From Bacteroidales bacterium (GTDB lineage Bacteria; Bacteroidota; Bacteroidia; Bacteroidales; UBA12481), in contig JAGHDB010000245.1 of assembly GCA_021160155.1 (NCBI GenBank), forward strand, positions 1 to 10,143: DNA of 10,143 nt. Reading direction: 5' to 3'. Positions within the stretch are counted from its first letter, which is position 1. Every line of letters starts with the position of its first letter. Under the pieces are notes generated by a model, which saw nothing but the letters and a program-made list of their open reading frames with translations, did not search any database and had not been told where the DNA came from. Below, one piece after another: positions 5,393-10,060 of the stretch. The position numbers and the translations under genes are program-made.

Positions 5393-5413
5393 AAAAGTTT
5401 ATAAAGTTTTTTG

Positions 5414-5445
5414 TTGCAGGATTGCAGGGTTGCAGGGTTGTAGGG
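5414..5445 (+). repeat. Octanucleotide tandem repeat (TTGCAGGG-like, 4 copies)
   Basis: Four consecutive 8-bp units read TTGCAGGA, TTGCAGGG, TTGCAGGG and TTGTAGGG, with a partial TTTGG after them. The repeat lies in the 122-bp gap between the tetR start and the stop codon of the predicted outer-membrane protein, upstream of the tetR promoter boxes. The strand shown is G-rich with evenly spaced GGG runs. Confidence 0.75.
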
Positions 5446-5456
5446 TTTGGTGGAGG

Positions 5457-6933: not shown

Positions 6934-8034
6934 TTATCGTATGATTTTTGCCAGTTTAGCGGCCAGCTCTTTTCCCCGGAGATTTTTTCCGATGATAATT
7001 CCTTTTTTGTCAACCAGGATGTTTGCCGGGATCGCACGAATGCCGTACTGTTTGGCCACGGCATTATCCCAGAATTTCAAATCGGATACATGGTGCCATG
7101 TCATTTTATCTTCTTTAATGGCCTGCAGCCATTTCTCTTTGTCCTTGTCGAGAGACACGCTTAATATGGTAAATCCTTTTCTTTTGTATGTATTATAGGC
7201 TTTTACCACGGCAGGATTTTCGGTACGACAGGGGCCGCACCAGCTGGCCCAGAAATCAACCAACACATATTTCCCGCGGAAATCAGACAGGCTGACCGGA
7301 TTACCATCCGGGTCGTTTTGGGTAAAATCCATAGCCGGCTGGCCTACGGCGGTCAGTTTTTTCAGTTCGAGTGTTTCGTGTAACCGGGTGACATATTTAT
7401 AATCATGAAGTTTGGGGTCGAATTGATTCATTAAATTCTCCAATTCAACCGGATCGTCAAATTTATAAGCACTCCGGTCGATCAGATAGGGAGCAACCGG
7501 TGAGGTGATATGGGCTTTGATGAATTTCAGATTTTCCGCATCCATGGCTTCATACACCTTATCCAGTTTGTTGCGGAGTTCTTCAATTCTGGCTTCGTCC
7601 TTGGCGTTCCGGGCTTTGGTATATTCCTGAAAGAGAGGGCGGTTACGAACCGATTGTTCTTTTCGCAATTCGTTATATTTCTGGTAAATTCCGGTAGCTC
7701 CCTTTGCGGTGATCTTAGCCAGGTGTAATGAAGAGGCATTGCCGGTGACCTCTATCGGTACGTTATCCATAAAGACACCCACCACTCCGCGTGCATCTCC
7801 GATTTTGAGGTAATAGAGATCCGGCTGGGTGATTTTCCCGGTCATTTCAAAAGAGCCGTCTTTCCGGATACCGGTTTCAAATTTGGTTACTAACTGACGT
7901 CCCTCCCGGGCTTGCAGCAGGGCTTTTCCACCGTTTACACCTTCAAACTTTCCGGTGAGGGTAAACATTTGGGCCATGGTCATTCCTGAAAGCAGAAACA
8001 GACCGGCCAAAAGGGTTGTGATGCGTTGTTTCAT
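6934..8034 (-). CDS. TlpA-like thioredoxin-fold protein with N-terminal DUF4369-type domain
   Basis: A 366-residue exported thiol-disulfide protein. Residues 1-21 are a signal peptide ending M-A-Q. Residues about 24-105 resemble the beta-rich DUF4369 domain often found in front of Bacteroidota thioredoxins (F-T-L-T-G-K-F-E-G, then K-D-G-S-F-E-M-T-G-K-I). A charged helical linker covers about 115-225. The thioredoxin domain (230-366) has W265-C-G-P-C269 as redox site and the cis-proline at Pro336 in R-A-I-P-A-N. Such proteins act in the periplasm, usually as reductants or in protein thiol handling; the partner is not evident. The ATG at 8034 directly follows the minus-strand end of a heptanucleotide array, so the leader is pyrimidine-rich and has no purine-rich ribosome binding site. 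It leads the ispD operon. Confidence 0.92.
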   Translation of the reverse strand: MKQRITTLLAGLFLLSGMTMAQMFTLTGKFEGVNGGKALLQAREGRQLVTKFETGIRKDGSFEMTGKITQPDLYYLKIGDARGVVGVFMDNVPIEVTGNASSLHLAKITAKGATGIYQKYNELRKEQSVRNRPLFQEYTKARNAKDEARIEELRNKLDKVYEAMDAENLKFIKAHITSPVAPYLIDRSAYKFDDPVELENLMNQFDPKLHDYKYVTRLHETLELKKLTAVGQPAMDFTQNDPDGNPVSLSDFRGKYVLVDFWASWCGPCRTENPAVVKAYNTYKRKGFTILSVSLDKDKEKWLQAIKEDKMTWHHVSDLKFWDNAVAKQYGIRAIPANILVDKKGIIIGKNLRGKELAAKLAKIIR

Positions 8035-8038
8035 GTTG

Positions 8039-8143
8039 GATGTTAGATATTGGATGTTAGATGTTGGATGTTAGATGTTGGATGTTAGATGTTAGATATT
8101 AGATGTTAGATATTGGATGTTAGATGTTAGATATTAGATGTTG
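8039..8143 (+). repeat. Heptanucleotide array GATRTTR, 15 units, in the leader of the thioredoxin-like gene
   Basis: Fifteen contiguous 7-bp units without gaps: 8 GATGTTA, 3 GATGTTG, 2 GATATTA and 2 GATATTG. Only positions 4 and 7 vary, and only A/G. The array begins four bases before the thioredoxin-like start codon and, on the transcribed strand, forms its 5' leader as (YAAYATC)n. It is inverted relative to the array at 9906-10045. The remaining 52 bp up to the lipoprotein stop codon (8144-8195) are AT-rich and show no clear promoter or terminator. Confidence 0.97.
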
Positions 8144-8195: not shown

Positions 8196-9974
8196 TTACT
8201 CCCCGGCGTTCCAGTCCCACGTCTCTTCAATTTCCCAGTTGGCTTTCAGGGTCAGTTCTTTTGCATAGAAGAGTACTTTCTCGGGTTGCAGGTGTTTGAG
8301 ATAACGGCCGGTATCCCATTTTCCGTTGCCATTTGTGTCGAGGATCAGTTTGATATGGTATTTTCCGGGATCCAATAAGCGAAATTCCGCAGTGCCGGGA
8401 CCTTCCAAAAATTGGCGGCGGATCATCTTTTTATTATTCTTCAGGAGTTCCACGATTCCGTGTCCGGATAACGAGGGAAGATGGATCAGGATGGATCCGT
8501 AATCCGCTTCGCCTTTGACGGTGAAACGGGTTTTCAGCGTGTCGTGTGTTTCATTCCGGATGGATCTGAATGCGCCGGGAAGGATTTCGAGGCGGTAAGC
8601 AGAATCCGGGAGCAGTGCCGGGGTGAGGATGTGAAAACGCGGCCGGGTGCCTTGAGAGGGTGGTAAGATAAGGGGGATGGGGGTAGAATCGTTGCCGGGG
8701 TACAGAAGGATTTTGGTCGTGTCGGTATATGGGGTGGGGACAGAGGTGGTGACGGTCAGCGGTTGGCCCATTTCGTGTTGGTGTGAATTGGATACGGAGG
8801 TAGTGAGGGTTATGGGGTAGGTTTTCTTTTCGGATTTTTTCGATTTTGCCGGTGTAGCCGGACTTGCAGATACGGCCAGTTTGAGTGTGTCTGTCACCGG
8901 GATCATCTGTTCGAGTGAATCATATCCGGGATAGGTTACCAGAACGGGCAGGGTATCCGGCCGGGCAAACAGGGTATCCATGATCCAGACATTGATCGTA
9001 TCGGGATCGGCATACCAGTCGTACATCACAGGCATTTTAGAAGAGGGCAGCTGTGTGGTATCCAGCCGGCGGAGGGTAACAGAGTCGGCCGGCTCATTAA
9101 AGATCAGCCGGATATGATCTTTCCGTAACCGTTCGGATGAAGCCAGGTACTGATGAGGATGATGCTCGGTAAACAGACGCAGGCGGATATTTTGCGGCGT
9201 CCGGAGGTAGCGGATGGAGGCTTTGGCAGAATCGGTAGCCGGTTTCAGCGTATCGATCAGTACTCCGGGATGCATCAGTGAATCCAGAAAAGCGACCGGT
9301 TCGGCGGGCTGGTCGAATAAAAAGTTGCTGTTGGCATCTTTCAGGGCAAAGATCTTGTAATCTCCTTCGGCAATGTTGCGTATGGTGAATTTCCCCTCTT
9401 TGTCGGTTTTGGCCAGGTAAACCGGCAATTCGATCATCGGCAGGCTGTCTTCATTCCGGGCATACAGCATGACAGCCACTCCCGCACCGGGTGTGGTATC
9501 AGAGGCATTGACCACCCGTCCGGAGACTTCCAGACTGTCAATTTCATTGCCGGTTGAAAAGACAAACTGAAAATTATCCAGCGGGTTGTTTTCATTCAGA
9601 TCCACCAGCGCATCCCCGAAATTAAGCGCATAGGTACGATCGGGTTGCAGTGAATCCAGAATTTTAATATACAGTGTTTTACCTTTGATTTTCAATTCGG
9701 GCCGCTCTTTCATGGGGGGCGAAACCACCAGTTTTTCACGGGCGTTTTTCAACACGAAATATTCGTCGAACGTAATTTTAAAGGAGTTGGTGGTAATACC
9801 GGTTGAATAATTAGGCGGTTCGCTTATCACCACTTTCGGAGGCGTTTCGTCTTTCGGACCGCCAACCAGCGCACCTTGCTGTGCACAGGAGGAAAAACCA
9901 AGAACCAACATCCAACATCCAACATCCAACATCCAATATCTAACATCCAACATCCAACATCTAATATCTAACAT
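8196..9974 (-). CDS. Ig-like domain lipoprotein whose N-terminus is encoded by a tandem repeat
   Basis: A 592-residue surface or periplasmic lipoprotein of a Bacteroidota family of unknown function. The family signature C-A-Q-Q-G-A-L-V-G-G-P-K-D-E-T-P-P starts at Cys30. Residues about 45-145 are an SbsA-type Ig-like (Big_5) domain (V-S-P-P-M-K-E-R-P-E, L-N-F-G-D-A-L-V-D-L-N-E-N-N-P). About 148-225 resemble a carboxypeptidase-regulatory or SpaA-like fold (S-G-R-V-V, G-D-Y-K-I-F-A-L-K-D). The conserved C-terminus includes D-T-N-G-N-G-K-W-D-T-G (546-556). Residues 1-23 come wholly from the GATRTTR array (M-L-D-[IV]-[RG]-[CY]-W cycles). Possible starts are 9974, 9953, 9932 and 9911; 9974 is only the longest frame, closed upstream by a TAG at 9998-9996. 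A likely ancestral ATG (M-K-R-V, 10060) is out of frame. The lipobox G-F-S-S-C has Phe at -3, which is atypical. Confidence 0.85.
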   Translation of the reverse strand: MLDIRCWMLDVRYWMLDVGCWMLVLGFSSCAQQGALVGGPKDETPPKVVISEPPNYSTGITTNSFKITFDEYFVLKNAREKLVVSPPMKERPELKIKGKTLYIKILDSLQPDRTYALNFGDALVDLNENNPLDNFQFVFSTGNEIDSLEVSGRVVNASDTTPGAGVAVMLYARNEDSLPMIELPVYLAKTDKEGKFTIRNIAEGDYKIFALKDANSNFLFDQPAEPVAFLDSLMHPGVLIDTLKPATDSAKASIRYLRTPQNIRLRLFTEHHPHQYLASSERLRKDHIRLIFNEPADSVTLRRLDTTQLPSSKMPVMYDWYADPDTINVWIMDTLFARPDTLPVLVTYPGYDSLEQMIPVTDTLKLAVSASPATPAKSKKSEKKTYPITLTTSVSNSHQHEMGQPLTVTTSVPTPYTDTTKILLYPGNDSTPIPLILPPSQGTRPRFHILTPALLPDSAYRLEILPGAFRSIRNETHDTLKTRFTVKGEADYGSILIHLPSLSGHGIVELLKNNKKMIRRQFLEGPGTAEFRLLDPGKYHIKLILDTNGNGKWDTGRYLKHLQPEKVLFYAKELTLKANWEIEETWDWNAGE

Positions 9975-10045
9975 CCAATATCTAATATCTAATATCTAAC
10001 ATCCAACATCTAATATCTAACATCCAACATCCAACATCCAATATC
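9906..10045 (-). repeat. Heptanucleotide array GATRTTR, 20 units, inside the lipoprotein signal-peptide region
   Basis: On the minus strand, 20 contiguous 7-bp units: 9 GATGTTG, 4 GATGTTA, 4 GATATTA and 3 GATATTG. As in the other array, only positions 4 and 7 vary and only A/G. It is preceded by ATG-AAA-CGG-GTT-TTA (10060-10046) and followed by GTTCTTGGTTTTTCC, which codes for V-L-G-F-S. Its length (140 bp) is not a multiple of three. Confidence 0.97.
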
Positions 10046-10060
10046 TAAAACCCGTTTCAT
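10046..10060 (-). pseudogene. Displaced original start of the lipoprotein gene
   Basis: ATG AAA CGG GTT TTA gives M-K-R-V-L, a textbook basic start of a signal peptide. Reading on into the array it hits an in-frame TAG after 16 codons. The downstream V-L-G-F-S-S-C looks like the other end of the same signal peptide, which suggests that the array grew or was inserted between them. If this peptide is still translated, it would be a short upstream ORF that ends inside the array, upstream of the surviving start codons. Confidence 0.55.

Follow-up and report, generated by a model that had tools for sequence, protein, structure and literature searches.

We found that a tandem array of the seven-base unit GATRTTR lies in the signal-peptide region of a lipoprotein gene in the window (the whole 10,143-nucleotide stretch of Bacteroidales DNA analyzed here). 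The window is an extreme heptamer case, in which the old start codon has been severed and any product would have to begin within the array. Orthologous genes of the same family carry other heptamers in their signal peptides, behind normal starts. We put at about one half the probability of the whole explanation that these sequences suggest, namely that the array serves as the signal-peptide core and that translation begins at an ATG within it, at 9974 or 9953. To our knowledge, the birth of new signal peptides is seldom visible. Here, one family shows ordinary, one-heptamer and other-heptamer signals side by side in orthologous genes, and because the orthologues carry all these signal types, one can follow how an export signal is born, is replaced and decays.

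The heptamer array and the surrounding reading frames

The features of the window that bear on this finding are as follows.

9906..10045, minus strand: array of 20 exact GATRTTR units, inside the signal-peptide region
10046..10060, minus strand: M-K-R-V-L (ATG AAA CGG GTT TTA), probable ancestral start and n-region
9885..9908, minus strand: lipobox L-V-L-G-F-S-S-C with the acylation Cys, mostly outside the array
9888..9974, minus strand: putative signal peptide encoded by the array, which would run from ATG 9974, or else from ATG 9953, up to the last residue ahead of the Cys
8196..9974, minus strand: lipoprotein ORF, intact, 592 codons from ATG 9974
6934..8034, minus strand: downstream gene, DUF4369 and AhpC/TSA thioredoxin-like
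8039..8143, plus strand (opposite orientation): second GATRTTR array of 15 units, ending 4 bp from the ATG of the downstream gene

An earlier note on this DNA had described 20 GATRTTR units between an M-K-R-V-L start at 10060 and an intact lipobox, and re-reading showed this to be exact. The range given for them (9906..10060) does hold the array but also takes in the M-K-R-V-L codons, the array proper spanning 9906-10045. On its 3' side the sequence continues as GTT CTT GGT TTT TCC TCC TGT (V L G F S S C), with the Cys codon at 9887-9885. The original ATG, as the note had stated, is out of frame, and its frame runs for 16 codons before ending at a TAG within the array. The lipoprotein frame contains TAG codons at 10019 and 9998, is open from 9995 into the intact lipoprotein, again as had been claimed, and has four in-frame ATGs inside the array (9974, 9953, 9932 and 9911). 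Since the TAG codons cut off the ATG at 10060, any product of the lipoprotein frame would have to start in the array. The contig extends just 83 bases past this ATG.

Tandem Repeats Finder scored the 20-unit array at 177 with a period of 7 and at 215 with a period of 28. A four-unit GATRTTR pattern had 116 matches in the genome that contains the window, as compared to none for a reversed control pattern; these scores and match counts rule out a chance origin of the array.

The mature part of the lipoprotein, in which about 560 codons are open, contains a Big_5 Ig-like domain, with weaker matches to DUF2141 and to CarboxypepD_reg (the latter just under the Pfam cut-off). The Cys of the GFSS-C lipobox is invariant in all 8 aligned rows, the window counted, and by its lipobox and Cys the window ORF is a predicted lipoprotein, a putative substrate of signal peptidase II. 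The second array, of which this finding of the earlier note says nothing, sits between the lipoprotein stop and the DUF4369/thioredoxin-like gene, and apparently the same downstream gene, as judged by eye, follows the lipoprotein in two other loci (L002 and L003). Elsewhere in the window, positions 5413-5447 hold a short tandem repeat of 8 bases, GTTGCAGG, in 4.4 copies.

Candidate start codons within the array

The lipobox rule (PROSITE PS51257), in the form used here, asks for a K/R-charged n-region near the start and for the Cys at positions 15-35. All four in-array ATGs had been put forward as starts by the earlier note; the first two, 9974 and 9953, satisfy the rule, with R at position 5 and the Cys at position 30 or 23, respectively, while 9932 fails for want of a K/R near the start and 9911 fails with only 8 residues preceding the Cys. 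The rule passes 5 of 8 relatives and fails the other 3, and hence is not decisive for the window starts. The net charge before the Cys is −1 or 0 for all four starts (−1 for both 9974 and 9953), as compared to +1 to +6 in eight relatives, whose N-termini read, for example, MKSR-, MRNI-, MRKI-, MKQK- and MIKN-. That the array now supplies the signal is suggested by its position and by the in-frame arrays of the relatives, but the net charge speaks against it at each of the four starts.

Removing one unit in simulation left a rule-passing ATG in 14 of 20 cases, and duplicating one unit did so in 15 of 20, most such changes being tolerated since it is the 3' side that fixes the frame. When the order of the units was shuffled, a rule-passing ATG appeared in 26.6% of trials and an open frame of 35 codons or more in 9.8%, so that the open frame is weak evidence of selection. 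Selection on the open frame of the window is therefore not supported, since shuffled-order arrays often do equally well.

The sequence context of the candidate starts was also considered. The available text of a study of translation initiation (PMC6847099) reports that A at −3 is a positive determinant of initiation in Flavobacterium, that AUG is underrepresented close to start codons in Bacteroidetes, and that Shine-Dalgarno sequences are naturally absent in this phylum. The base at −3 of the in-array ATGs is T, and the array is full of AUG, contrary to the scarcity of AUG by Bacteroidetes start codons; a start inside the array is not barred, however, because Bacteroidetes lack Shine-Dalgarno sequences. 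Self-folding of the array RNA is strong (−47.1 kcal/mol, z −5.1) and should hinder initiation. Across 9880-10060 the GATRTTR RNA is self-complementary via G-U pairs, forming a predicted long hairpin, which could matter in itself for arrays that adjoin start codons.

The severed old start, the weak candidate signal and the strong RNA hairpin would also be expected if the array had destroyed the start and the protein were no longer made or exported, its mature part simply not having decayed yet. Such a loss sits poorly with a lipobox that has been kept, with some 560 open mature codons, and with a protein whose first 200 residues are 55-69% identical to those of seven relatives; we regard it as quite improbable, the least likely of the three alternatives weighed in this study. 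An array-derived signal peptide starting at 9974 or 9953 remains the reading that we prefer.

GATRTTR arrays across the genome

The window belongs to a metagenome-assembled genome (G000) of 2.38 Mb in 411 contigs, which is 81.6% complete and is the only genome of its genus compared. This genome contains 16 GATRTTR arrays of at least 4 units: the lipoprotein's own, two at contig ends that were omitted, and 13 that were tested for a neighboring start, picked by eye from translations. Twelve of the 13, all outside the lipoprotein gene, end 1-32 bp from a start codon (7 of them reversed and 5 forward), and the remaining one (C79) had no start codon identified within 112 bp. Genes next to arrays, named by eye, include lspA-like, tyrA-like, mnmE-like, purD-like and M1-peptidase-like genes. 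GATRTTR is therefore a start-proximal, mostly intergenic heptamer repeat, a kind already described.

The unit itself is not common to the relatives, the four-unit pattern having no match in any of the 11 other family genomes examined. In a sample of 149 genomes of the order, five GATRTTR units were found only in G000 and one other genome (G147). The reversed control pattern, likewise a heptamer, matched in 2 of the 149, which shows that other heptamers are as sporadic as GATRTTR.

The already described kind is exemplified by TAACTGA direct repeats, which occur in Beggiatoaceae, Cyanobacteria and five Bacteroidetes (PMC4679880). Judging from the available text of that study, TAACTGA resembles GATRTTR in having a seven-base unit, in lying mostly in intergenic regions just upstream of starts with a few copies in ORFs, and in breaking contigs (PMC4679880). 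The unit differs, however, and forward TAACTGA arrays have stops in all three frames; ORF-internal TAACTGA repeats are placed mostly at protein ends, and the same text describes no signal peptides among them (PMC4679880).

Heptamers in the orthologous lipoproteins

We located 31 loci of the lipoprotein, from which L061 and L062 were left out, the N-terminus being absent, as it also is from the lipoprotein of G003. Periodicity was scored, blind to frame, as the self-match at a lag of 7 bases over the roughly 110 bases that lead up to the conserved beginning of the mature part. The scores were as follows.

Window (GATRTTR): 0.96
G004, L033 (GCCTTGT): 0.93
G005, L034 (GTCTTCY then GCCTTGC): 0.89
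G010, L037: 0.86
G009, L038: 0.82
G008, L036: 0.71
G007, L049: 0.50
G006, L032: 0.43
G011, L035: 0.39
21 further loci, unpaired with family genomes: at most 0.61

Of the eight same-family orthologues with a readable N-terminus, five have a normal start followed by a signal-peptide core built from another heptamer (GCCTTGY or GTCTTCY), which is what came of the comparison of 5' ends that the earlier note had called for. The signal peptides of G004 (MKSRIKHRGLTLCLVPCALCLFLSC) and G005 (MHKSPSRLLSSVFCLPSSILRIAPCALCLLFSC) combine a charged start with a repeat-made core and are complete and lipoprotein-like. Those of G006 and G011 are ordinary and have no heptamer, and that of G007 (MRLTPYFLLVPCALGLLFSC) is weak and perhaps decayed. 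Together with the genome-wide arrays, these orthologues rule out that the array is peculiar to one gene. On a tree of the mature part, the presence of an array requires 3 label changes, and with the basal forks of the family open the tree is compatible with a single common origin of the lipoprotein arrays or with several. The longest in-frame N-terminus of G010 also carries a second, longer repeat, GLKPAAID, present twice.

It could be argued that short reads mis-sized or mixed the array, and that the real gene, read from ATG 10060, contains only a short array or no array at all. The fragmentation and incompleteness of the assembly lend some weight to this argument, as do the length of the array (140 bp) and the several arrays that fall at contig ends (C232, C270 and C297). 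The unit variants are nevertheless intermixed along the length of the array and do not form one collapsed unit, and the relatives, which come from separate assemblies, have heptamers at the same place. An assembly error thus appears improbable to us, if less so than loss of the export signal, and we continue to favor a genuine array that forms the signal-peptide core.

Heptamer signal peptides in other genes

GCCTTGY arrays of at least 3 units occur in 6 of the 12 family genomes and are absent from G000. Sorted by our own reading, 32 array clusters (30 in 28 stretches, plus the two lipoprotein cases) comprised 5 in signal peptides, 6 elsewhere in coding sequence, and 21 that were intergenic or unassigned. 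The signal-peptide clusters belong to two lipoproteins, a GH92 enzyme, an esterase-like protein and a patatin. Nine of the array-bearing proteins are named by Pfam matches, with the esterase domain just under the cut-off.

For patatin, 15 loci were returned, of which 11 were read at full length and one (L101) was dropped, its motif not being found. Heptamer signal peptides are present in 5 of the resulting 10 patatins (G008, G009, G010, G005 and G000), and the signals of G011, G007, G006, G001 and G002 are ordinary. The patatin of the window's genome (L098, contig C177) has a short run of CTTCTGC, a heptamer that differs by one base, and none of 300 shuffles equaled this run in periodicity; searching that genome for two GCCTTSY units plus GCCTT gives no match, its patatin array being short. 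Among the best 10 of 25 esterase-like loci, 2 have heptamer signals (GCCTTGT in G005 and TTTCTTC in G004) and 8 have no clear one, although two of these are borderline periodic (G011, equaled by 2 of 300 shuffles; G003, by 8 of 300). Dinucleotide shuffling, repeated 300 times, never gave the periodicity of any of these seven cases from patatin and esterase genes.

The three orthologue sets together hold 12 heptamer signals, and as assembled each of them shares its frame with a start upstream. Two (L091 and L106) were seeds chosen for their open frame, and the other 10 were scored frame-blind. Three initial cases, namely the lipoprotein and the esterase and patatin met first, were picked for having arrays and are not independent evidence.

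As background, signal-peptide-like ORFs were heptameric in 1 of 166 cases in samples of five family genomes (G000, G004, G006, G009 and G011; score window slightly different) and in 0 of 83 in two control genomes. The single case appears to be a spurious ORF that falls within an intergenic array, and the view that many signal peptides are generally heptameric was rejected on this low background. Segments with lag-7 periodicity turned up in two of these genomes, G004 (4 over the 211 kb sampled) and G006 (1 over 88 kb). The samples of G000 (115 kb), G011 (62 kb) and G009 (259 kb) had none, and the controls had 1 in 400 kb; the sampled stretches came from low-numbered contigs and were not random. 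Heptamer signals are rare, yet, as read from these sequences, they are present in three genes, each with differing units. The three genes either retain an ancient array, with changes of its unit, or acquire arrays repeatedly. Export signals in this family seem to be rebuilt from simple heptamer repeats.

A proposed model for array-derived signal peptides

The closest known case is that of the opa genes of Neisseria, where CTCTT pentamer repeats lie in the region coding for the leader peptide (PMC3960869, PMC3899988), setting a precedent for a microsatellite that codes within a leader peptide. As in the window, where export is predicted, the repeat unit has a length not divisible by three, and the microsatellite encodes part of the signal peptide of a surface protein that is exported. 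The accessible portions of these sources describe repeats that switch the gene on and off by frame; in contrast, the heptamer signals of our relatives are in frame and give no sign of switching. Moreover, the unit in the window and its family is 7 bp long and changes between orthologues, and that of the window itself contains ATG.

By analogy, heptamer copy number might shift the frame between M-K-R-V-L and the mature protein, the assembled copy being the off state of a phase-variable lipoprotein. This would account for an ATG at 10060 that lies in a different frame from the mature protein, for M-K-R-V-L being a good n-region, and for an array placed in the gene as the opa repeat is (PMC3960869, PMC3899988). 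Yet there are TAG codons inside the array, and a one-unit change at its 3' side cannot connect the M-K-R-V-L frame. Furthermore, all 10 frame-blind orthologue heptamer signals are in frame where random phase would give about one third, although these cases are not mutually independent. We judge such a switch unlikely, albeit the foremost of the alternatives.

Under the explanation that we prefer, the events would be the following. A heptamer microsatellite that adjoins many start codons of the genome occupies the position of the hydrophobic core in the lipoprotein signal peptide, as seen in the sequences. Since a period of 7 gives an identical seven-residue cycle in all three frames, a similar hydrophobic stretch would result at any copy number, and the 12 in-frame arrays suggest that signal-peptide cores tolerate arrays. 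The arrays of the relatives are short and follow a fixed start; in the window, growth to 20 units, with their TAG codons, would have severed the ATG at 10060. As each GATGTTR unit brings its own ATG, the frame would then be fixed from the 3' side, and translation would most likely begin at ATG 9974 or 9953, yielding a weak but probably usable lipoprotein signal.

More broadly, and tentatively, heptamer arrays may be frame-indifferent coding modules that have repeatedly seeded signal peptides and in-frame loops in this family; the array in the window would supply its own starts, with slippage altering the length of the export signal and not its nature. This offers a possible reason why heptamers can persist in coding sequence and other units of a length not divisible by three cannot. 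The earlier note had called such an origin unusual, but the phenomenon recurs in the family and has its precedent in opa.

A literature search at the level of titles and abstract openings met no description of heptamer-built signal peptides. Rickettsia palindromic elements are repeats that lie in frame inside unrelated protein genes, with longer, palindromic units. PARCELs likewise lie in frame inside unrelated protein genes (PMC2996958); they differ from heptamer arrays in that their units are longer and palindromic and are not microsatellites, and the available text makes no mention of signal-peptide cores (PMC2996958).

Heptamers in other coding sequences

All six frames of GCCTTGY are free of stops, one strand encoding a hydrophobic peptide (ALCLVPC-like) and the other a hydrophilic one (ARRKAQG-like). 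In-frame arrays were seen in a PrmC-like methyltransferase (L085), an IF-2B/MtnA-like protein (L067) and two GH106-like glycosidases (L083 and L090), whose inserts read KAQGTRRKAQ-like or EPCALRLAP-like, and the PrmC-like methyltransferase gene holds both strands of the repeat. A rule by which the hydrophobic strand would be confined to membrane or signal parts was dropped, as this soluble PrmC-like enzyme has it in frame. Finally, L071 and L077, which by eye are probable gltX genes of two species, have heptamer arrays just upstream of the start.
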